From Bryobacterales bacterium (GTDB lineage: Bacteria > Acidobacteriota > Terriglobia > Bryobacterales > UBA6623), in NCBI GenBank assembly GCA_026713545.1, contig JAPOOG010000099.1, positions 62,001 to 126,000 of the forward strand: 64,000 nucleotides of DNA. The letters run 5' to 3'. This document shows, one piece after another, positions 28,852-40,092 of the stretch; within the stretch, counting starts at the first letter, position 1; each line of letters starts with the position of its first letter. Position numbers and translations under genes: made by a program. The notes under the pieces are model-generated. The model did not search any database and was not told the DNA's origin. It was given only the letters and a program-made list of their open reading frames with translations.

Positions 28852-29151
28852 CTCTTGAATCTTGGTCTCTGAAGGTCCCGGCGGGGCCTGATGGAGCAAA
28901 GCCCCACAGTGATCGCTGTGATGGGGTCGGGACAGGAGCCGGGCAGGAGCAGCCGATATCAGCGATGCGGCGGGCCTTTCACCAAGTTGTTCGTGCGGCG
29001 CGGCAACGGGCGAGCGACTGTCCCCTGCATGACAGCTAACGGCTGAACGCGTGTTGACGTCGCGTGCACGACAGCCGATCCCGCAACTTCAACTCGATGC
29101 TCTTTCCACAATCGCGGGCATGTCTATCTGCGTTCTCGAATACTTTTCCGG
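28852..29151. other. intergenic stretch after the FGE gene
   Basis: Between the FGE gene and the repeat copy. Apart from one hairpin (28902-28926) I see no coding signal, promoter or structure that I can support. Confidence 0.5.
28902..28926 (+). terminator. bulged hairpin after the FGE gene
   Basis: CACAG/CTGTG with an outer CCC/GGG clamp and a two-base bulge forms a stem about 50 bases past the stop. No T-run follows, so this is weak. Confidence 0.3.
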
Positions 29152-29346
29152 CTAGCCTGCATGTCTCACCACGTGGCGAGCTGAAGTGCGTGAGAGGGCC
29201 GTCAGGACGAGGCGCGCGCCGCTTGGTGCGAGCAGGCGTACTTGACAGTACGTCGAGCACGGCAAGCAAGCGTTGCGAAGGAAAAGCGAAGTCATGGCGG
29301 TCGTATTGCGTGCTTCGGCCGTCGGGTGGTGAGAAATGCAGGTCAG
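29152..29346. repeat. dispersed inverted-repeat-bounded element, copy 1
   Basis: A 195-bp element with ends CTAGCCTGCAT and ATGCAGGTCAG. The inward ends CCTGCATGTCTCACCAC and CCTGCATTTCTCACCAC are near-perfect inverted repeats. The interior is shared at high identity with copy 3 (58300-58483) and in part with copy 2. Its right terminus contains the TGA stop of the minus-strand TonB receptor. No transposase-like frame is inside. Confidence 0.9.
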
Positions 29347-31862
29347 TTGCCAATTTCGAACAACGCGCGGATCTTGCGTTTCACACCGCGATAGAAGATT
29401 CCGTAGAAAGGACTCGCCAGGTTTCCTTGCACGTCCTGCGGGTTGAAATTGTTCAAGATGTTGAAAAGCCGTATGCCGGCGCGGACACGCCGCTCTTTGC
29501 CCATCAGCTTGATCGTGAACTGCTTCGACGCCTGGAAATCGAGCGCATTGAAAACCGGGAAGCGCCCTGCCCGATTGCGGGAGCCCACAAAGTCACGATG
29601 CTCGTCGATATCCGAGTACGGAAACCCGCTTCTCACTTCCCATACGGGGATGCCCTTCAAGCCGAACGGCAACGGGAATTCGGTCCAAGCGAGAAAGCGG
29701 TGGGGGACATCGAATCGCAATGGAGCCCGCTCGTTCGGACGAATCAACGCAAGAGGCGCCGGACCGTAGATCGAGCCCAGGTCGTTCAGGTCGCCGACGG
29801 ACGAGGACCGAACGTATGACGCAGTGATATGACCAGTGCCCTTGAGGCGGTATCTCGCCGTGGCCTGGTATTCCCGATAATGATCTCGCCCGTTGTTGCT
29901 GAGAATCAGGGCGCTTGCCTCGTCGCTCGATTCGACGGGGAAGCTTGGTTCGATCAAGAAATTGCGTGTTGTTCGCCTTTGCTGGTAGCCGACCCGCAGG
30001 AACAGATCGTTAATCAACTCGTGATCGAGTTGCAGGTTCCAACCGATGCTTCGGGCATTTCGAATCTTTCCGTCAATGTGTGGATTGAATCGCCGCAACG
30101 AGGTGATATTGCCAATGGGGTCGAAGCGCGTGTCGATGCGCACCGGAAGTTGCATGAACGTCGGCACGAGCAGACTAACCCGGTCGATGAACAGCCCGCT
30201 GCCGCCGCGGAGCACGGTGCGCGAGCCGCCGCCGAAGGCGTAGGCGAAGCCGGCGCGGTAGGAAGGGTTCCACTCCCCGGCGACCGAGTCACGTTCGAGC
30301 CTTGCGCCCAGGTCGAGTGTCAGCGCTTCCGACACGGACCACTTGTCCTGCACGAACGTGGCAAGGTCGTTCTTGTTCGCGCGAACGGTCGTTGGGTTCG
30401 TGAAGTCCAGCTTTGAGACGACCCGGTTGTTTATGCCCAGCCAGGTAATGGGATTGAAGATCTGGTCACCGCTGTAGGACTCGAGGCCCCACTGGACGCC
30501 GGTCACGATCTGGTGATTTCCCAGTGGGGCGAAATGGAATTGCTCGGACAGATTGCGGCGTATCGTCTGCCGGGCTTGCCGGTTGAAGAATGCTCCTCTG
30601 GCGCGCTCGAGACCGATGAAAGAAGGATCGTACGTACGCGGCTTCACATCGTTGTCGAGGTCCTGATAGGAGAGATTCGAGATCAGCAGCGCGCCGGACC
30701 GGAATTCGTGAGTATCCCTCAAAGTCACCATGCGGCCGCGCCGACGCAAGTCGGGAGTCGAAAGTTGCGTGTTAAAGGCGTTCAGGCCGAAGTAGCTGAG
30801 CTTCTCGGGGTAAACGAGAACGCTCAGTGACATCCGATTGCGGTTGGAGATGCGGGCGTCGAACTGGTTGAACACGGTCAGCGTCTCACGCTCGACATCC
30901 CGTTCCAGCAGCGGGAGATTGGCGTCTTCCTGATCCGCGCGCACAAACTGGTATTCCGTGGAATGGAGAAGAGCGAGCCGGCCGTCCTTGATCGGAACGT
31001 TGACGGTGAGTCTTGGAGTGAACGACTCGATCCCCATGATCGCGCCGTCTCTGCGGCGGATGCGGGGACCGAAATTCTGGAGGTCGACTTTGAGCTTCGA
31101 CAAGTCCGCCGGCTTGGTCTCGACCGTGGACACGGCTCCCGCGAAGCCGCCGAACTGCGCGTCGTAAGGGGTCGAAAGGACTTGCACGTTTGAGATCACG
31201 CTGAGTGGCAGACTGAACTGCGAAGTCCGTGCGACCGGGTCCGTCATGTCGACGCTGTTCAATTGCGAACCACTCTGGCTTGCGCGAACGCCATTCAGGT
31301 TGATCTCGCCTTCGTTGCCGCGCAGCACGCCGGGAATGAGCGGCATAACGTCTTCGTACCTCTTGTTCGCCTTGGGCGCGTTATCTATGGTCGAAAAACC
31401 GACAGATCCGGAGGAGGACGTTTCGCTGGGGTCGATCGTAATGGCGGAGGCGGTCACTTCGACGGACTCCACGACGGCCTCGACCTGCATTTCGATGGCG
31501 AGCCGAAAAGGCTGCTCCTCGGCGGGCAAGCAAAAAAAGTCGCTCTGACCGATCATGCCCGGCGCTGTCGCGACAATCACGTAACAGCCGGCGGGAATGC
31601 CGGAGAAGCGGAAGATGCCGAGTTCGTCCGTTTCGGCAGTCGGCTCTGCGGCGGGCGCCTCTCCCTGTTGCGATTCGGAATCCGGCTCCACCTCGGAAAC
31701 CGACTGCAGGCGGATGTGCGCTCCGGCGGCGCCGAAGCGTTCCGAGTTCGGCCCCACGACCACGGCCTGTCCGACGATCGCGAAACCGCCTACCTGGCCG
31801 GACGCCGCCCCGGGCAACAGCAGCAAGACAGCTATCAGGCCTGTTACGAAAGTAACGCCCAC
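29343..31862 (-). CDS. TonB-dependent receptor with carboxypeptidase-like N-domain
   Basis: An 839-residue outer-membrane receptor. A signal peptide (ending ASGQ) leads to a carboxypeptidase-regulatory-like beta-sandwich (FAIVGQAVVVG, LGIFRFSGIPAGCYVI), the plug (ALSMVE-like region, LRGNEGEINLNGVRASQSG, DAQFGGFAGAVSTVETK) and a barrel. GTG 31862 is preferred because AGGG lies eight bases upstream; TTG 31868 is the alternative. The C-terminus is FEIGN, not the usual aromatic residue, and the stop codon belongs to the terminal repeat of the adjacent element, so the native end may have been altered. It may share a regulatory context with the redox cluster upstream. Substrate unknown. Confidence 0.88.
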   Translation of the reverse strand: MGVTFVTGLIAVLLLLPGAASGQVGGFAIVGQAVVVGPNSERFGAAGAHIRLQSVSEVEPDSESQQGEAPAAEPTAETDELGIFRFSGIPAGCYVIVATAPGMIGQSDFFCLPAEEQPFRLAIEMQVEAVVESVEVTASAITIDPSETSSSGSVGFSTIDNAPKANKRYEDVMPLIPGVLRGNEGEINLNGVRASQSGSQLNSVDMTDPVARTSQFSLPLSVISNVQVLSTPYDAQFGGFAGAVSTVETKPADLSKLKVDLQNFGPRIRRRDGAIMGIESFTPRLTVNVPIKDGRLALLHSTEYQFVRADQEDANLPLLERDVERETLTVFNQFDARISNRNRMSLSVLVYPEKLSYFGLNAFNTQLSTPDLRRRGRMVTLRDTHEFRSGALLISNLSYQDLDNDVKPRTYDPSFIGLERARGAFFNRQARQTIRRNLSEQFHFAPLGNHQIVTGVQWGLESYSGDQIFNPITWLGINNRVVSKLDFTNPTTVRANKNDLATFVQDKWSVSEALTLDLGARLERDSVAGEWNPSYRAGFAYAFGGGSRTVLRGGSGLFIDRVSLLVPTFMQLPVRIDTRFDPIGNITSLRRFNPHIDGKIRNARSIGWNLQLDHELINDLFLRVGYQQRRTTRNFLIEPSFPVESSDEASALILSNNGRDHYREYQATARYRLKGTGHITASYVRSSSVGDLNDLGSIYGPAPLALIRPNERAPLRFDVPHRFLAWTEFPLPFGLKGIPVWEVRSGFPYSDIDEHRDFVGSRNRAGRFPVFNALDFQASKQFTIKLMGKERRVRAGIRLFNILNNFNPQDVQGNLASPFYGIFYRGVKRKIRALFEIGN

Positions 31863-31872
31863 TGACAATACC

Positions 31873-31889
31873 CTAATCAGTCAGATTAG
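31873..31889. promoter_or_regulatory. palindrome in front of the TonB receptor
   Basis: CTAATC-AGTCA-GATTAG is a perfect inverted repeat with 6-bp arms, ending next to the ribosome-binding region of the receptor gene. An operator or leader hairpin that limits translation are both possible. Confidence 0.45.
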
Positions 31890-31981
31890 CAATCGCCCCC
31901 GAGGGTTACATGAAGTTTTGTGAGCACCCCGCTTGGTAGGCAGGAGCGGCGGGCTCCCGAAACGAACGTGGGAGAAACCAT

Positions 31982-33121
31982 CTAAGCAAGATCGATGCGC
32001 TTGATGCGGATCTGCTCGTCGTCGAACACGCCGAGACCGAAGTTGCCGGCGATTTCGATGTGCTCTACATGGCAATTCAGCCAACGGCTGTCTTCGTCCG
32101 GTTTAAGGAGGGCGATCGGAGCGACCCCGACCTCCTCACGCTTATTGTCGATGGCCTTCCAACCGGTCTTGTCGAGCGCAACCGGGTCAGTCGCGAAGTA
32201 CATCGTCTTGTGATTCCAGGCGTACTTGCTGACCGTCGTGCCGGGACCGCCATGGTAGGCGGCCTTGACCCCATCAAGAATGTTCAAGACGACCTTTTCT
32301 CGAACGATCGGCAAGTCGACCACGGCCGGAATGAACAGACCGCAGGCATTTGCCGTAGTTGTGACGTGGCTGCGATTGACGTTGTTGACGAGACCGTGCG
32401 AGAGGTTCTTCAGCGCCAGGGTCACGCCCGCTGACTGATGGTGCTTCAGCAGGCACAGGTTGACCATCTTGTTGATCTCTTTGCTGAAAAAGTTCGAGAC
32501 GTACGAGCGCCGGATGTGCGGATCGTTCAGGCTGAATTCCTCTTTGTAGTCCGGGTGAACCAGCGGCATCTCCATGTACGTATCGCGGTCGTATCCCTCC
32601 ATATCCATCTGAAAGTTGCGGAACTTCTGTGACGCCGACATCCAGCGGACTCCTTCCGGAAGCCATTTGTCGAACCCGGCGTTGAGGAATTGGTCGTGAT
32701 AGCGGTCGTAGGCGATGATGTCTTTGCGCTTGACTCCGGCCTGCTCCAGGCCGTCAATGATTGGGTACAGCACCTCGGGCGCCGATATCACGGCAGGCTG
32801 GCCAACCGGATTGAGCTTGACACCGACGACGTCGCCCGGCTCGAAAAATACGCGCCAGGCATCGGCCCAGCTCTCGGCATGTGTCAGTTCGAGCATGCCG
32901 CGCTCCATCATCCGGCGGACCGGCTCGGCCTGATACTGGTCAGAGATGATGCTGCCGGGATGGCTGACGGCTACAACGCGTCCCGGATAGGGACCCGGAA
33001 TACCGAGTTTTGCGCCCGCCGAAGCACCGGAAGCGGCCGCTTGGCTATCGGTGGCTTTCCGGTTGCAAGCAGCGGCGGCGGCGGCACCGGCGGCCAGGAA
33101 TTCGCGTCGATCAAAGTGCAT
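31982..33121 (-). CDS. DUF362 Tat-exported protein
   Basis: A 379-residue exported protein of the DUF362 family, of unknown biochemical activity. The N-terminus MHFDRREFLAAGAAAAAACN combines a twin-arginine-like RREFL motif with a possible lipobox cysteine, so it may be a Tat-exported lipoprotein. Family features are DVVGVKLNPVG, NLCLLKHHQSAGVTLALKNLSHG and TDPVALDKTGW. The start at 33121 has AAGGAGG seven bases upstream. It is the third gene of a minus-strand redox cluster (barrel, cupredoxin, di-heme cytochrome), but has its own extended -10 promoter. Confidence 0.85.
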   Translation of the reverse strand: MHFDRREFLAAGAAAAAACNRKATDSQAAASGASAGAKLGIPGPYPGRVVAVSHPGSIISDQYQAEPVRRMMERGMLELTHAESWADAWRVFFEPGDVVGVKLNPVGQPAVISAPEVLYPIIDGLEQAGVKRKDIIAYDRYHDQFLNAGFDKWLPEGVRWMSASQKFRNFQMDMEGYDRDTYMEMPLVHPDYKEEFSLNDPHIRRSYVSNFFSKEINKMVNLCLLKHHQSAGVTLALKNLSHGLVNNVNRSHVTTTANACGLFIPAVVDLPIVREKVVLNILDGVKAAYHGGPGTTVSKYAWNHKTMYFATDPVALDKTGWKAIDNKREEVGVAPIALLKPDEDSRWLNCHVEHIEIAGNFGLGVFDDEQIRIKRIDLA

Positions 33122-33146
33122 GTACGCCTCCTTTGAATTCGGACCC

Positions 33147-33155
33147 ATTCTAGCA
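33147..33155 (-). promoter_or_regulatory. extended -10 promoter of the DUF362 gene
   Basis: On the minus strand TGCTAGAAT is an extended -10 (TGnTAGAAT) about 26 bases before the start codon, without a recognisable -35. Confidence 0.4.
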
Positions 33156-33213
33156 GCACGAACTTCAAACGGTGGATGGCTGCCCTTGCTGGTTTCAGGC
33201 TACGCCCCGCGTT

Positions 33214-34485
33214 TTAGAGCGAGTCGAGAAAAGCAAGCAGAGCAGAGTTGTCTTCCTCCGAAAGCCTGAGGTAGCTGTCTGCCGACCGTTGCGCTTCGTT
33301 GCCGTGGCGTAAGACAGCCTGCTCGGGGTTGGCGGCGCTGCCGTCGTGCAGCAGCGGGCGGCGGTGGCGCAGACCCCACAGCGCGGGTGTTCGTATTTCA
33401 TGGGCAAGGGCCGACGCTTGGGGGATGCCGTCTCCCGTGGCGACATCGTGCAGCAGCAGGTCCGAGAACAGGAAGACCTCACGACGATCGAAGACGGGAT
33501 TCGGGCTTTCGCCGGTGACCATCATAGGAACATGGCAGTGTACACAGCCGATCGCCGAAAAGAGAGTTTCTCCCCGTATGACGGTCTCGTTGATCGGGCC
33601 GCGTTCCAGAGGCGCGAGGAACTTCATGAAGGCTTCGAAGGAATCGATGCCGCGCAAACCGGTAAGGAGCTCCGGGACGTCTTCGGGATCGGCAGCCGGA
33701 TCGCAGAGATCGAGCCGCTCGGGATCGATACCGGCGCCGACTTCCGTGCGGAAAAGGTCGTTGGTAATACCCATCTCGTTGCGGTAGGCGTCCGCCCCGA
33801 AGGTAAGCAGGGTGGCGTGCTGGGCCTTCCAACCGAATCGGCCGACCCGTTCCCGTCCGCTGGCGACGTCGACCACGACGGCCGCTCGGCCGCTGATACC
33901 GTCGGCGTTCTGATCGTCGGGGTCTTCACGAGCACGGATGGTCTCATCGGCGATGGCTTCGACGAGACCTGCTCCAAAAAGCGGGATCGGAACTCGCCGG
34001 GCGAAGACATTCGCTTCCTGCGGAACGCGCGGTTGGCATTCCTGGCCAGGGAGCGAGAAGAGGTGGAACATGGTATCGCCCCCCAGAACGGTGAAGCTGC
34101 CGTTCTGATCGACGTGGCCTGCATGCACTTCCGAGACCGGGCTGATCCCGCCGATCGCGGGGGTTGCATGGCATTGCGCGCAACTGAGTCCGTTGAAGGC
34201 CGGGCCGAGCCCCTCGGCGGCGTCCTCGACTTCGAGGAAATCGTCGAGACCGATGCGAAAGAATTCAAACTCCTGTTCGGTGATGCCGGGGAGCGGGTTG
34301 CCGGGTTGCGAGGGACGTCCTGCGGGTGCTCCGTTGAGATTCCGGGCGGAAGATTGCAACAGGCGCGTGGTCGGCGAGAGTCGGCGCTGTGTGTCGGCCG
34401 CCCTCGCTGTTGGGCCGGGCGCCGTTGCGGTCACCGATAGCAGCGCGGCGAATAACGCGGCCCATACGAGTGAACGGGTCTTCAT
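33214..34485 (-). CDS. di-heme oxidoreductase (DHOR/DUF1111) cytochrome c
   Basis: A 423-residue periplasmic cytochrome with a signal peptide (1-30). It belongs to the DHOR (DUF1111) family, a putative thiol oxidoreductase or peroxidase. Two heme c motifs are visible: CAQCH (102-106) and CVHCH (314-318). Other family blocks are GLGPAFNGLSC, DQNADGISGRA and the C-terminal TPALWGLRHRRPLLHDG. DHOR proteins are often encoded in iron-regulated clusters with imelysins; no imelysin is present here. It overlaps the cupredoxin gene by ATGA (34482-34485), so electron transfer between them is plausible. Confidence 0.9.
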   Translation of the reverse strand: MKTRSLVWAALFAALLSVTATAPGPTARAADTQRRLSPTTRLLQSSARNLNGAPAGRPSQPGNPLPGITEQEFEFFRIGLDDFLEVEDAAEGLGPAFNGLSCAQCHATPAIGGISPVSEVHAGHVDQNGSFTVLGGDTMFHLFSLPGQECQPRVPQEANVFARRVPIPLFGAGLVEAIADETIRAREDPDDQNADGISGRAAVVVDVASGRERVGRFGWKAQHATLLTFGADAYRNEMGITNDLFRTEVGAGIDPERLDLCDPAADPEDVPELLTGLRGIDSFEAFMKFLAPLERGPINETVIRGETLFSAIGCVHCHVPMMVTGESPNPVFDRREVFLFSDLLLHDVATGDGIPQASALAHEIRTPALWGLRHRRPLLHDGSAANPEQAVLRHGNEAQRSADSYLRLSEEDNSALLAFLDSL

Positions 34486-34862
34486 CGCACAACAATCCGA
34501 CCGCGCATGATGGTGTGGCCCGCGCCGCAGGCTTTCGAGCACTCGAACGGGAAGACCCCCTTCTTCTGTGCGCGGAAGAGAATACGGGTATCGCCGCGCC
34601 CACGCTTGGGAACGATCACATTGACACCGGCTTCCCGGATGCGGAAGCCGTGGTTGGTATCGAGGCTGCGGATCCTCAATTCGACCACCTCGCCCTGCTT
34701 CAGGCGAATGACGGAAGGCACGAAGCTGAAGCGCTCGGCCACTATGCTGATAACGCGGTCGGGCTGTTCGCGCTCGGACTCGGCCTCGGATGACGCGATC
34801 GCGAACAGGCCCAGAGAGATCAGGAGCAACAGCGGAACCGTTCGGGGGGCGTGACGTCTCAT
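34482..34862 (-). CDS. exported cupredoxin with CuA-type site
   Basis: A 126-residue protein with an N-terminal hydrophobic segment (PLLLLISLGLFAIAS) and a cupredoxin fold. His71 (TNHGF) and the loop Cys108-x3-Cys112-x3-His116-x2-Met119 match the CuA site of cytochrome oxidase subunit II and nitrous-oxide reductase. No oxidase subunits are near, so it is likely a free-standing electron carrier. It is coupled to the di-heme cytochrome gene by a 4-base overlap. Confidence 0.88.
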   Translation of the reverse strand: MRRHAPRTVPLLLLISLGLFAIASSEAESEREQPDRVISIVAERFSFVPSVIRLKQGEVVELRIRSLDTNHGFRIREAGVNVIVPKRGRGDTRILFRAQKKGVFPFECSKACGAGHTIMRGRIVVR

Positions 34863-34887
34863 TCGTGGGTCTCGCCTGCTTTTTCCC

Positions 34888-34990
34888 CTAGTGGAGAGAC
34901 GAAGTGCCTGAGAAGGGTCTCAGGACAAGGCGCGGGCTTCTTGGCGAGCGATGGCGTACTTGACCCCAGGTGGTGAGAAATGCAGGTCAA
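34888..34990. repeat. dispersed element, copy 2 (internally deleted)
   Basis: Shorter relative of copies 1 and 3, about 103 bp. It begins CTAG, keeps the GAAGTGC..GAGAAGGGTCTCAGGACAAGG-like left part, jumps at GTACTTGAC to GGTGGTGAGAAATGCAGGTCA, and so has lost about 75 bp of interior and the left CCTGCAT arm. The right terminus lies 7 bases from the stop codon of the barrel gene. Confidence 0.8.
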
Positions 34991-34995
34991 GAACA

Positions 34996-36330
34996 TCAGA
35001 ACCACCATCCTATGCCAAGATTTACGCCATTACGGGCCTTGATGAGCCGACTCTGGTTGTGCAGAACGGTGTAATCGAACTTGAGCGCGACATCCGGCTC
35101 GGGAAAGAACGTCAACCCCGTGACGAGTGCATCGCGGTCGAACTCCTTGAGAGGGAGAAAGCCTTGGGCCATGCGGTTTTGGGTATCGAAGTTCTCGTAA
35201 CGGGAAAACGCGACCAGGTCGTATCGCTGCCTCAGCGGGAGCAAGTGGTACGCCCCCTCGAGATAAAATCCGCGCATTCTTTCGGCGATGTTCGGGTTGA
35301 CGCCTGTTGTGCGCTGAAGCAACGAATTCAGCCGCTCGGTTTGATCGAGGGTCAGGTTTGCCCATTCCCCCCGGAAATCGAATCGTGAAACGCTGAATCG
35401 TCCATCGAACTCAAAAACGTTGACCCGAGGGTTGATGCCGGGAGTGGCGAAACCGCTTTTGCCGGTCCAGAAACTGCCGCCCAGCGACAGGCCCGGCAGG
35501 CCGTGATACTCGAGACGTCCCGTAATCGCGGGGTTCTGCATGATCGACCCGAAGGCTTTCTGCCGGCCTTCACGGATACCCTCTTCTGCGTTGAAGAGTG
35601 AAGCGTTCAGCGGAGCCATAACGTACGACTTGTATACGAAGCCGCCGCCCAAGTCACCGAAGATGCCGGCGCCGGGTTCGAACCAGGTGCTGGGCAGGAT
35701 GACGGTGTCGACAAAGGGCCGCTCGACTCCGTTGAATGACGGAGGCTCGTGACGTTCGTTCACGAGGCCGACGGGAGCGAGCATGATGCCCGAACGGAAG
35801 TTCAACCAGGGTTTGACGAGGAAGTCGAGATAGGCTTGCTCGAGTTCCAGTTCGCCGCTCGGCCTTCCTCCCTCGACCAAGGCGTGTTCCAGTTCGAGTT
35901 CTGACCAGAATTGGATACGGTTGCTGAAGCTGTGTCCGAAGAGCAGGACGAAGCGGTGAAAGTCGCCGATCGCGGGCGCGCCTTCGGCCTTGTTGACGTG
36001 GGACTCCATATAGCCCGAGATAGGCATGCGAATCTCGAAAGAGTCCTCGCGGGACGACCGATCGGCGTCGCTCGGGATCACCTCGGCCATGGGCAGGGGC
36101 CGCTCGACAAGAGGTTCGGGCTCGTGAGCCGGAACCACAGACGCTGCTTGCCGGGAGGAGGTTTCGGACTCCTCGGTGGGCTCTTCGCCGGCGCCTTTGA
36201 GTGCGACGATCTCAGCTTCGAGTTGACGGATGCGCGCCTCCAGCATTTCGAGGCGGGCCTGAACAGGATCCTTTGCAACCGGTTCGGGCGATTGGCCGAT
36301 CAGTGTCGAAGCCAAAATGAAGCAGCCCAT
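34996..36330 (-). CDS. porin-like outer-membrane barrel with coiled-coil N-terminus
   Basis: A 444-residue outer-membrane protein. After a signal peptide (MGCFILASTLIG) comes a short coiled coil (ARLEMLEARIRQLEAEIVALKG), an acidic linker, and a beta-barrel of about 330 residues ending NLGIGWWF with the C-terminal aromatic signal. Phosphate-selective/carbohydrate porin families look similar, but the substrate is not clear. ATG 36330 is chosen; further upstream reading would run through the palindromic operator. It heads the cluster leading to the cupredoxin and di-heme cytochrome and has a strong promoter. Confidence 0.82.
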   Translation of the reverse strand: MGCFILASTLIGQSPEPVAKDPVQARLEMLEARIRQLEAEIVALKGAGEEPTEESETSSRQAASVVPAHEPEPLVERPLPMAEVIPSDADRSSREDSFEIRMPISGYMESHVNKAEGAPAIGDFHRFVLLFGHSFSNRIQFWSELELEHALVEGGRPSGELELEQAYLDFLVKPWLNFRSGIMLAPVGLVNERHEPPSFNGVERPFVDTVILPSTWFEPGAGIFGDLGGGFVYKSYVMAPLNASLFNAEEGIREGRQKAFGSIMQNPAITGRLEYHGLPGLSLGGSFWTGKSGFATPGINPRVNVFEFDGRFSVSRFDFRGEWANLTLDQTERLNSLLQRTTGVNPNIAERMRGFYLEGAYHLLPLRQRYDLVAFSRYENFDTQNRMAQGFLPLKEFDRDALVTGLTFFPEPDVALKFDYTVLHNQSRLIKARNGVNLGIGWWF

Positions 36331-36358
36331 CACACGGAAGCTTGTGAAGCATCTTGAA

Positions 36359-36372
36359 TTAGGTTTACCTAA
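36359..36372. promoter_or_regulatory. DtxR/MntR-like palindromic operator
   Basis: TTAGGT-TT-ACCTAA is a perfect 14-bp palindrome close to the TTAGG..CCTAA half-sites of DtxR/IdeR/MntR regulators. It lies about 20-35 bases downstream of the predicted transcription start of the barrel gene, where a bound repressor would block elongation. No DtxR-family gene is in the window. Confidence 0.55.
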
Positions 36373-36399
36373 ATAAATCACAAGGCATCCAGAAAATTA

Positions 36400-36429
36400 A
36401 TTCTAGGGTACCCAACGAAATAGTGTCAA
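36400..36429 (-). promoter_or_regulatory. strong sigma-70-like promoter of the barrel/redox cluster
   Basis: On the minus strand TTGACA (36424-36429), an 18-base spacer, and TAGAAT (36400-36405). The predicted start is near 36393, giving a leader of about 63 bases that contains the palindrome. Confidence 0.7.
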
Positions 36430-36478
36430 GCAACGCTTATCCGAGAGATGGGAGAGGCGAAAAGACGCTGGGCCGCCT

Positions 36479-39400
36479 CTATGCGGCAGCGGATCGAGAG
36501 TGCCGGCCGAGCATCGCGATAGCTGTCTGTCGGGTCTCTTCGATCGATGCGAGCTTGATTTGCTCATAGCCGCGGATACGGTCCGGAAGCCGGGCGATCT
36601 CGACGGCTGTCTCCAGGTTCGCGGCGGTCAAGGTCGGCAACAAACCACGAATCATCTCTTCGTACCAGCCGATCAACGCCCTCTCTTGACGGCGCAAATG
36701 GGCGTAGCCAAAAAGGTCCAGCACGCTGCCGCGGAGGAACTTCATCGCGGCCAGCGTCTTGAGGAAGGGACGAGCCCACGGTCCCAGCGAGAGTTTCCGC
36801 TTGAGCCCCATCGCACGGAGCAAGGGTGGATGAAGATGATAGACCTGTTTGACGGGCGCCTCGAACATTGCTTTGACCTGCTCGCCGAGGTCAGGCAGCG
36901 TAAGAAGCCGCGCGACCTCGTACTCGTCCTTGTAGGCCATCAACTTGTGGCTGTACCGCGCAACGGCTTCCGTCAGAACGGTGCTGCCGGGGGCAACCGC
37001 TTGCTCGGCTCGGCGGGCTTCAGCAACGAGCTGTTCGTACCGTCTGGCGTAGGCCGTGTTCTGGAACGAGACGAGCTCATCGGTGAAAAGCCGGATGCGG
37101 CCTTCAAGAGTTCGTGGAGCTTTCGCGGGCCGCTCGGGCGCGGCGAGGCTTTCGACCTTCGACGGATCGGCGACGTATTGGCGGCCGTGGCGAAAGGCGG
37201 CCACGTTACGGTCGACCTGGACGCCGTTCAGGCGAATCGACTCCTCGATGGATGACGCTCGAAGAGGAAGCAAGCCCGCTTGGTAGGCTGCGCCGAGCAG
37301 GAACACATTGGTCTGGAGATGCCCGCCGAACAGCGATTCGGCAAGCCGGGATGCATCCAGGAAGATGCTCTGCTCGCCGCGCGTGTGCTCGCGGACGGCG
37401 CGAGCGAAGGAGCCGTCAGCCGAAAGAACGGTGAGCCCCTTACGGATCGACTCGTGGGTCGGGATTTCATGCGAGTTGACCACCGCCGCGGTGCGTTCGG
37501 CACTCGGGCGGCAGAGGTTGGCCGCGGCTGCAGCGCCCATCGCATCGAAGCCCAGCAGCAGGTCAGCGGCGCCGTAACTGATGCGGTTGGATTCTTCGAT
37601 CGGTTCCTCTCCGATCACAAGATGGGAGACGACGGCCCCGCCTTTCTGCGCCAGACCGGTCTGATCGAGAGTCGTGGTGCATTTGCCGTCGAGCAAGGCG
37701 GCCGTCGCGAGCACAGCGTTGATGGTGACGACGCCGGTCCCGCCGATTCCCGGCATCAGAATGCGATAGGACCGCCCGGCCGTGACTTTCTCCACGGGCT
37801 CGGCCACCGTCGCCGCGGGCAGATCGGGCAGTGGACGCTTCCTGAGGCCGGTCCCTTCCTCGACCATGACGCTGACAAATGACGGACAGTCCCCTAGAGC
37901 GCAGGTATAGTCCGCGTTGCAGGATGACTGGTGGATGCGTGTCTTCGGGCCAAACTCCGTTTCCACCGGGTGCAGCGACACGCAGTTCGATTTCGCGACG
38001 CAGTCGCCGCAGCCTTCGCAAACGCGCTCGTTGACCATCAGCCGCCGGACCGGTTGCGCCATGAGGCCTCGATTGCGGCGGCGGCGTTTCTCGGCGGCGC
38101 ACATCTGGTCATAGATCATCACCGTGACGCCGGGTGTCCGTTCGAGATCTCTCAGGACAAGATCCAGATCCTCACGAGGGCGCACCTCTGTGATCTCCGC
38201 TAAACCGTTGCGGTTCTCATAACGGGTGAGGTCGTCGGTCAGCAGAGCGATTCGCTTGACTCCATCGGCTTCCAACTCGCGCGTCAGGGCCGGAATCGGC
38301 AAGCTGCCGGCGATGTCCTGACCGCCCGTCATCGCGACGGTGCCGTTGTAGAGGATTTTGTAGGTGATGTTGACGTTCGCCGAAACTGCGGCGTTGACCG
38401 CCATGCGCCCGGAGTGAAAATACGTTCCGTCGCCGAGGTTCTGAAAGATATGATCCATGCCGCTGAACGGGGACGCGCCGATCCAAGCGGCTCCCTCACC
38501 GCCCATCTGAGCGATGTACTCGATGCCCCGGTTGGCCTCCCCGAGCGACGCCGCCATGCCATGACAGCCGATGCCTCCGCCGGCGATCTGACCCTCGAGT
38601 AGATAGGTCGAGCGGTTGTGAGGACACCCTGAGCAGTAGCTCGGAATGCGCGGCGGTGCGGACTTGCTTTGGACAAAGCGCTTTTCGATTTCGGCCAACT
38701 CGGCCAAGCGGCGATCGATGCCTTCACCACGGCCCAACCAGCGGCCCAGAGCTCTGGTGATGATCTCGGCGTCCAACTCCCCGCTGGCGGGCAGCAACTC
38801 ATCCCCTGCGGGATCAAGCTTGCCCCAAATCGCCGGCCGCCGCCCGAAGTGATACAGCAACTCCCGCAATTGCAGCTCGATGAAACTGCGCTTCTCTTCG
38901 ATCACCAGGACGCGGTCGAGCCCCCCGGCGAACTCATTGATGATCGTCGGCTCCAAAGGAAAGACCATCCCCAACTTGAGAATCCGGATACCGGACGCCT
39001 CGAGTTCGGCCGGCCCGATACCGATGTTGCGGAAGGCCGACATCAAGTCGTAATAGCTCTTTCCGGCAGTGATGATGCCCAGGCGGTCATCGTTGTGCCT
39101 CGGTCTGATCTGGTTAATGTGGTTGCAACGCGCGAATTCTTTCGCGGCCGCCATGCGCTGGTAATGCAATTCCCGTTCGAGCCGCAGCGAGATGGGGATG
39201 ATCAGCAGCGGGTTCATCACCTTTTCGTAGCGCTCACCGTCGATCAGGAGATCCGGCTCGACGATGGGGACTCGATCCGGCGACACCTCGACGGTGCCCC
39301 CGCCGTCGCAAATGTCCGTGGAAACCTTGATGCCCGTCCAGGCGCCCGTGTAGCGAGAGAGCGCGATGCCCCACAGGCCGTAGTCGAGCACTTCTTGCGT

Positions 39401-39922
39401 GTTGCCGGGAGTCAGTGTCGGCAGGGCGTGGTTGTAGAACGAGATTTCGCTCTGATGGGGGATCGTCGAGCTCTTCGAGACGTGATCGTCGCCCGCGAGC
39501 GCCAGTGCGCCGCAGTTGCTGCCGGTTCCTGCGAGATTGGCGTGTCGAAAGACGTCACCGCTGCGGTCGACACCGGGTCCCTTGCCGTACCAGATGCCGA
39601 CCACGCCATCGACTTGCGGGTCGGGAAGGGCTTGAAAGATCTGGCTCCCCATGACCGACGTGGCGGCCAAGTCCTCGTTGACCCCGGGCAGGAAGCGGAT
39701 GTTGTGGTCAGAGAGATGTTTGCCGACACGAGCGAGAGCGAGATCGTATCCTCCGAGGGGCGAGCCCTCATAGCCGGAGATCCACGTCGCCGTCTTCAGA
39801 CCCGCGCGGCGGTCACGGCGCATCTGCTCGATCGGCAGGCGCACGAGGGCCTGGATTCCGGTCATGTAAACGCTGCCGGATTCCAGTGTGTACTTGTCGT
39901 CCAGAGAGAAATCGCGCGGCAT
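36479..39922 (-). CDS. indolepyruvate ferredoxin oxidoreductase, fused alpha/beta/gamma
   Basis: A 1147-residue cytoplasmic enzyme that oxidatively decarboxylates aryl- or branched-chain 2-oxo acids (from amino-acid transamination) to acyl-CoA, reducing ferredoxin. The TPP-dependent halves are in order: pyrimidine-binding start (GIQALVRLPIEQ, GYEGSPLGGYD), CSGCPHN and GGGIGCHGM, the TPP motif region (MGGEGAAWIGASPF through NGTVAMTGGQD), a cysteine-rich ferredoxin segment (CEGCGDC, CALGDCPS), and a gamma-type domain (MPGIGGTGVVTINAVLA). ATG 39922 begins MPRDFSLDDKYTLE, typical. It is monocistronic and divergent from the zinc dehydrogenase. Confidence 0.94.
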   Translation of the reverse strand: MPRDFSLDDKYTLESGSVYMTGIQALVRLPIEQMRRDRRAGLKTATWISGYEGSPLGGYDLALARVGKHLSDHNIRFLPGVNEDLAATSVMGSQIFQALPDPQVDGVVGIWYGKGPGVDRSGDVFRHANLAGTGSNCGALALAGDDHVSKSSTIPHQSEISFYNHALPTLTPGNTQEVLDYGLWGIALSRYTGAWTGIKVSTDICDGGGTVEVSPDRVPIVEPDLLIDGERYEKVMNPLLIIPISLRLERELHYQRMAAAKEFARCNHINQIRPRHNDDRLGIITAGKSYYDLMSAFRNIGIGPAELEASGIRILKLGMVFPLEPTIINEFAGGLDRVLVIEEKRSFIELQLRELLYHFGRRPAIWGKLDPAGDELLPASGELDAEIITRALGRWLGRGEGIDRRLAELAEIEKRFVQSKSAPPRIPSYCSGCPHNRSTYLLEGQIAGGGIGCHGMAASLGEANRGIEYIAQMGGEGAAWIGASPFSGMDHIFQNLGDGTYFHSGRMAVNAAVSANVNITYKILYNGTVAMTGGQDIAGSLPIPALTRELEADGVKRIALLTDDLTRYENRNGLAEITEVRPREDLDLVLRDLERTPGVTVMIYDQMCAAEKRRRRNRGLMAQPVRRLMVNERVCEGCGDCVAKSNCVSLHPVETEFGPKTRIHQSSCNADYTCALGDCPSFVSVMVEEGTGLRKRPLPDLPAATVAEPVEKVTAGRSYRILMPGIGGTGVVTINAVLATAALLDGKCTTTLDQTGLAQKGGAVVSHLVIGEEPIEESNRISYGAADLLLGFDAMGAAAAANLCRPSAERTAAVVNSHEIPTHESIRKGLTVLSADGSFARAVREHTRGEQSIFLDASRLAESLFGGHLQTNVFLLGAAYQAGLLPLRASSIEESIRLNGVQVDRNVAAFRHGRQYVADPSKVESLAAPERPAKAPRTLEGRIRLFTDELVSFQNTAYARRYEQLVAEARRAEQAVAPGSTVLTEAVARYSHKLMAYKDEYEVARLLTLPDLGEQVKAMFEAPVKQVYHLHPPLLRAMGLKRKLSLGPWARPFLKTLAAMKFLRGSVLDLFGYAHLRRQERALIGWYEEMIRGLLPTLTAANLETAVEIARLPDRIRGYEQIKLASIEETRQTAIAMLGRHSRSAAA

Positions 39923-40092
39923 GCGGGAAGCGACTCTCACTCTACAACACAAAAGACGCGACTCAAGCTTTCCTGCTTGCAGCACGACGATCGGCGGCGC
40001 AGCCGAGCCAGCCGGTGCTGGATGCGGCGGGCAGTCTCGTACAAGAGGTTACAATCGAACGATATCCCGAAGCTCTCTCCGCTCCAAAGGCT

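Follow-up and report, generated by a model that had tools for sequence, protein, structure and literature searches.

A promoter and a palindrome precede three genes on the minus strand

The window, a stretch of 64,000 nucleotides at positions 62001-126000 of contig C90, belongs to a Bryobacterales genome of 5.6 Mb in 170 contigs. On its minus strand, a promoter is followed by a palindrome and by genes for an outer-membrane porin, a CuA cupredoxin and a DHOR cytochrome, and then by a DUF362 gene and a gene for a TonB-type receptor. The features of the locus are:

36400..36429, minus strand: promoter, TTGACA (36429-36424), 18-nt spacer and TAGAAT (36405-36400), from the sequence scan
36358-36373, minus strand: candidate operator, DtxR-type 6-4-6 palindrome TTTAGG-TAAA-CCTAAT, i.e. 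TTTAGGTAAACCTAAT, from placement and conservation
34996..36381 (GTG) or from ATG 36330, minus strand: outer-membrane porin ("barrel"), from gene call, structure model and alignment
34482..34862, minus strand: secreted CuA-type cupredoxin with H71, C108, C112, H116 and M119, from domain match and ligand alignment
33214..34485, minus strand: DHOR/DUF1111 di-haem cytochrome with two CxxCH, from domain match

The TTGACA-N18-TAGAAT element is the sole sigma-70-like match across 29000-36600, and the gap that holds it together with the palindrome lies behind a gene of the indolepyruvate ferredoxin oxidoreductase type (36479-39985). An inverted repeat of TTAGG-type half-sites (TTTAGG-N4-CCTAAT) is present behind the -10 box. 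Its core, TTAGGTTTACCTAA at 36359-36372, extends to the 6-4-6 palindrome at 36358-36373, which begins 26 nt past the promoter, some 20-35 nt beyond where transcription is expected to start. Thus the promoter and the DtxR/IdeR/MntR-like palindrome claimed for the barrel leader in the earlier note were both found, the palindrome in this extended form. The start codon of the porin is uncertain, and use of the GTG at 36381 would place the palindrome inside the first codons. In four other loci (L058, L071, L074 and L075) the putative operator overlaps the probable porin start codon, and the repressor site and the translation start have bases in common there. A search of the porin leader against Rfam for structured RNA gave no match.

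The conserved unit is porin, CuA cupredoxin and DHOR

The porin model (pLDDT 84) has 16 strands with an N-terminal helix/coiled coil and matches general porins; the plug and the 22-strand barrel of TonB-dependent receptors are absent from it. The porin profile matched only coiled coils among the sequences of solved structures. Such porins have loop 3 as their constriction loop; here it spans residues 185-216 (numbering from the ATG) and has a conserved NERHEPP motif, with N191, E195 and P196 invariant as far out as Flavobacteria and E192 and H194 nearly so. The cupredoxin has the CxxxCxxxHxxM motif and the upstream His of CuA, and these ligands are kept in relatives. The cupredoxin and DHOR reading frames share 4 nt where the stop of the first meets the ATG of the second. 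The DHOR product matched PF06537 at 146.6 bits, over the Pfam cut-off, with two CxxCH. The barrel, CuA cupredoxin and DHOR had therefore been correctly named from the sequence.

Porin homologues were found in 32 of 200 relatives, and the porin, CuA and DHOR genes are kept together in most of them. The conserved unit is therefore of three genes, namely the 16-strand porin, the CuA cupredoxin and DHOR. The earlier note had also counted the DUF362 protein and the TonB receptor as cluster members, which did not hold up: the window genes at 29343-33148 (DUF362 and OMP_b-brl_4/TonB-type) stand alongside the module in this genome and, among relatives, only in the genus-mate G001, are absent beside it in G002, G003 and G006, and were rejected as parts of it. 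In L067 and L079 (G187) the module adjoins genes for RND efflux and a heavy-metal P-type ATPase.

Paralogous porin-cupredoxin pairs in L080, L081 and L082 have lost the CuA cysteines and have neither DHOR nor an operator. Loss of the CuA cysteines where DHOR and the operator are absent points to a joint function of CuA and DHOR.

The palindrome is shared with a dtxR-feoB operon

The number of palindrome matches in the window (two within 3 mismatches vs 0.53 expected) was dropped as proof. In the whole genome, the consensus TTTAGGNNNNCCTAAA at ≤2 mismatches is rarer than the reversed control pattern and its count is within chance. At ≤1 mismatch it occurs at three places in 5.6 Mb, namely the dtxR-feoB leader, the porin leader and a GTTAGGC repeat on contig C143, and only the first two, the dtxR-dtxR2-feoB leader and the porin leader, are placed at promoters. 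The palindrome therefore takes its meaning from placement and conservation rather than from composition. The sites on C143 and C32 were ruled out as operators because they are GTTAGGC repeats rather than promoters; these sites of the GTTAGGC/GCCTAAC type, in pairs spaced by roughly 100 bp (G000:C143:11882-12003 and G000:C32:4417-4531), resemble integron attC sites. None of the Nramp genes of the genome has the site, and their control by this operator was rejected. Looking for the same palindrome elsewhere, a check that the earlier note had proposed, thus led to the dtxR-dtxR2-feoB leader, the anatomy of which matches that of the porin leader (TTGACT-N18-TAGAAT followed by TTTAGGGCTGTCTAAA).

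The operon lies on contig C49, and its first gene, dtxR1 (C49:29589-30275), encodes a protein with DtxR DNA-binding, metal-binding and FeoA domains. A DtxR-family regulator, the absence of which from the genome had been named as an argument against the metal-type palindrome, is thus present. The genome also has one Fur gene; Fur was rejected as the regulator of the palindrome, which lacks what we take to be the Fur-box form. The best solved relative of DtxR1 is 8pvt (E 2.5e-43), a putative iron-dependent repressor, which we take to be the Deinococcus protein DR2539. Both Mn(II) and Fe(II) elicit a response from DR2539, a repressor of mntH with Lys at the position of MntR Glu11 (PMC3327659); DtxR1 reads VDDYLK, with Lys at this same position. 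DtxR1 scores as MntR-like but under the NCBIfam MntR cut-off, and it has Lys in place of the Glu11-type binuclear Mn site of MntR sensu stricto. As its metal ligands belong to the dual Mn/Fe type, manganese is a possible metal too. In sequence, DtxR1 is similar to DR2539, a repressor that works with either Mn or Fe, and the dtxR1 gene is apparently autoregulated through the same palindrome.

The second gene, dtxR2 (G000:C49:30284-31336; L003 10284-11336), encodes a hydrophobic N-terminus with DtxR metal-binding and FeoA domains, and its product gave no N-terminal match to the DtxR DNA-binding domain. The protein may link FeoB to the sensing of metal. Genes related to dtxR2 are present in the same family and in L126. 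The feoB gene is seen as two open frames in succession, of 276 and 464 aa, that overlap (G000:C49:31333-33554; L003 11333-13554).

The putative operator is kept in relatives and varies with the regulator

The host's form of the palindrome, class A (TTTAGGNNNNCCTAAA), was found at ≤1 mismatch in 5 of 27 barrel leaders of relatives vs 0 of 1510 control windows, and in all seven dtxR1 leaders checked in genomes with the barrel. It precedes the barrel in G001, G003, G006 and G075. A similar promoter layout with spacers of 17-18 is found before the barrel in these four and in G002, the barrel leader of which has a degenerate palindrome only (TTTAGCTTTAGCTAAT). Retention of the site before the barrel by same-family relatives, together with its sharing by the dtxR leader, supports the DtxR-type reading of the palindrome.

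Across 21 genomes, 20 exact copies of TTTAGGNNNNCCTAAA were counted, vs 9 for the control. The 17 exact loci inspected precede dtxR1 (nine, of which one is shared with a divergent gene of the TonB type), a TonB receptor (six), the barrel (one) and another gene (one). In genus g6, all 11 genomes have an exact site 24-30 nt before a TonB receptor and none has the porin; another outer-membrane protein therefore appears to share the operator with feo. The porin and that TonB receptor are mutually exclusive inside the family (five barrel genomes without the receptor and 13 non-barrel genomes with it). As a general rule this exclusion fails across the order, where seven genomes have both. The TonB gene of the window was rejected as an orthologue of the g6 receptor, the similarity being short and weak.

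In sister groups, the module has one of two other 6-4-6 palindromes, TTAACNNNNGTTAA or TTTTGANNNNTCAAAA. Class B (TTAACTATAGTTAA) at ≤2 mismatches was found in 15 of 27 Bryobacterales barrel leaders vs 0 of 1510 control windows. Most porin leaders of the Bryobacterales families f2 and f3 have it, usually at the -10 box or just behind it. Among more distant Acidobacteriota, 8 of 15 porin leaders have class C (TTTTGANNNNTCAAAA) at ≤1 mismatch (control, 2 of 239), as do four of the seven dtxR leaders at those same loci. Both classes were defined from these same leaders, and the controls (0/1510 and 2/239) measure specificity rather than serving as an independent test.

Among genomes with a single regulator type and a clear operator, dtxR1 goes with class A in five and the other regulator type with class B in 13, with no crossed case; the 5:0 and 13:0 are raw genome counts that include shared ancestry. 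Genome G075 of family f3 has the dtxR1 type next to the porin and a class A operator, G078 has both regulator types, the one that goes with class B having a class B operator next to it, and G118 has neither regulator nor operator. The exceptions are G002 with its degenerate operator, G073 with a DtxR and no operator, and G108 with class B and no DtxR match. A DtxR gene adjoins the module in seven loci and in several more Acidobacteriota. Thus, in all but a few of the genomes compared, the predicted operator class goes with the DtxR type present, which together with the DtxR genes neighbouring the module in many relatives favours the metal-repressor reading of the earlier note.

Gene neighbourhoods also point to iron. 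In L126 (Vicinamibacteraceae), porin-CuA-DHOR is followed by dtxR and then by a divergent dtxR2-feoB. Distant porin relatives in Ignavibacteria adjoin Fur, FTR1/FtrD, FMN_bind and ApbE, and the sampled Flavobacteria and one Deltaproteobacterium have the porin with FMN_bind. Comparative genomics shows the candidate operator and its presence at dtxR-feoB as well, the grouping of the three genes, the match of regulator and operator, and the adjacency to feo.

A model for the module and its alternatives

The palindrome is well supported, by the genome comparisons, as the operator of a metal-sensing DtxR-family repressor that would also control feoB, the gene for the importer of ferrous iron. We suggest, as the likely explanation of the whole locus, a DtxR-repressed porin-CuA-DHOR redox module that would supply Fe(II) to FeoB; the repression, the metal transported and the direction of electron flow are proposed from genomic context. 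DtxR1, a DR2539/MntR-like repressor loaded with Fe(II) and/or Mn(II), would occupy 36358-36373 just past the promoter and block transcription of the three-gene operon. Upon metal shortage, the porin, CuA and DHOR would be made together with FeoB; the porin, with its conserved N-E-x-H-E motif in the constriction loop, would admit iron, and the CuA/di-haem pair would move periplasmic electrons and keep or make the iron ferrous for FeoB. The three genes probably form an iron (or manganese) uptake system that occurs across Acidobacteriota and is little known.

The same regulation could also serve a protective module, with DHOR as a CuA-fed di-haem peroxidase that clears periplasmic H2O2 during high iron uptake and the porin as a general pore. 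Pfam labels DHOR a putative peroxidase, the best solved relatives of its profile are di-haem peroxidases, and EfeB-type peroxidases accompany iron uptake (PMC3143127). Because DHOR proteins are annotated as peroxidases, the CuA/DHOR pair may detoxify rather than reduce, and the 16-strand porin is a passive pore that may lack metal specificity. However, the likeness of the DHOR profile to peroxidases is weak and largely C-terminal, and the distant porin relatives keep a non-peroxidase redox partner (FMN_bind/ApbE) beside FTR1; a protective role is, in our judgement, unlikely.

An MntR-type regulon with an outer-membrane route for Mn(II), as in the TBDR-pTFP locus of Stenotrophomonas where MntR controls a TonB receptor (PMC13217887), would agree with the MntR-like though below cut-off score of DtxR1 and with its closest solved relative, taken as DR2539, since either Mn or Fe enables DR2539 to repress mntH (PMC3327659). 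However, the inner-membrane transporter that shares the regulation is FeoB, the operator site is absent from all Nramp genes, the L126 module adjoins feoB, and the redox pair fits iron better, which makes a manganese system quite improbable. That the palindrome is an accidental AT-rich repeat and the module of the host has no metal regulation would suit the genome-wide count, where the reversed pattern is commoner, and the loss of the consensus in G002; placement, conservation, sharing with dtxR-feoB and the switching of the operator with the regulator type leave this very hard to believe. Returning to the supply of Fe(II) to FeoB, its boldest form is an undescribed outer-membrane machine of Acidobacteriota for acquiring iron, in which a metal-selective porin and a CuA/di-haem relay reduce ferric iron for a FeoB co-regulated by the DtxR repressor. 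This machine would fill the slot of the TonB receptor in the regulon of relatives, with DtxR control kept through three operator classes; we offer it tentatively, as somewhat short of an even chance.

Relation to known systems

To our knowledge, outer-membrane iron passage in Acidobacteriota is poorly known, and a conserved porin-CuA-di-haem unit under the predicted repressor of FeoB is a concrete candidate for a route of iron uptake that needs no siderophore. With a constant 6-4-6 geometry, the three matched classes of DtxR and operator offer a natural series for repressor-operator co-change. Our literature searches, which left most subscription journals outside their coverage, found the three-gene unit described nowhere. 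DtxR-controlled metal acquisition is already known, and the outer-membrane redox module is what appears to be new.

The arrangement is like the DR2539, MntR and IdeR regulons in its inverted TTAGG-type half-sites at promoters and in the alignment of DtxR1 with the DtxR-type chain 8pvt. Unlike in those regulons, the putative targets here are feoB and either the porin/CuA/di-haem unit or a TonB receptor, and the operator sequence varies by subclade while the 6-4-6 geometry stays constant. The TBDR-pTFP locus of Stenotrophomonas (PMC13217887) likewise combines DtxR-family control and an adjacent regulator with an outer-membrane protein and a periplasmic redox-type protein; there these are a TonB-dependent receptor and a thioredoxin-fold protein, whereas the present unit combines a porin that lacks a plug with a CuA cupredoxin and a di-haem cytochrome.

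EfeUOB links DUF1111 peroxidases and cupredoxin-type domains to the uptake of iron (PMC3143127). The present module likewise has a di-haem DUF1111 protein and a cupredoxin, encoded here by adjacent genes, but its cupredoxin is of the CuA type and a porin is added; the three-gene unit has no imelysin domain, and a search of the genome for an EfeU/FTR1 permease gave no FTR1 match. Flavinylation gene clusters have been tied to iron reduction and assimilation (PMC8238504), and the distant porin homologues resemble these extracytosolic systems in adjoining FMN_bind, ApbE and FTR1/FtrD, whereas the Acidobacteriota module has CuA and di-haem proteins in the place of the flavin carrier.
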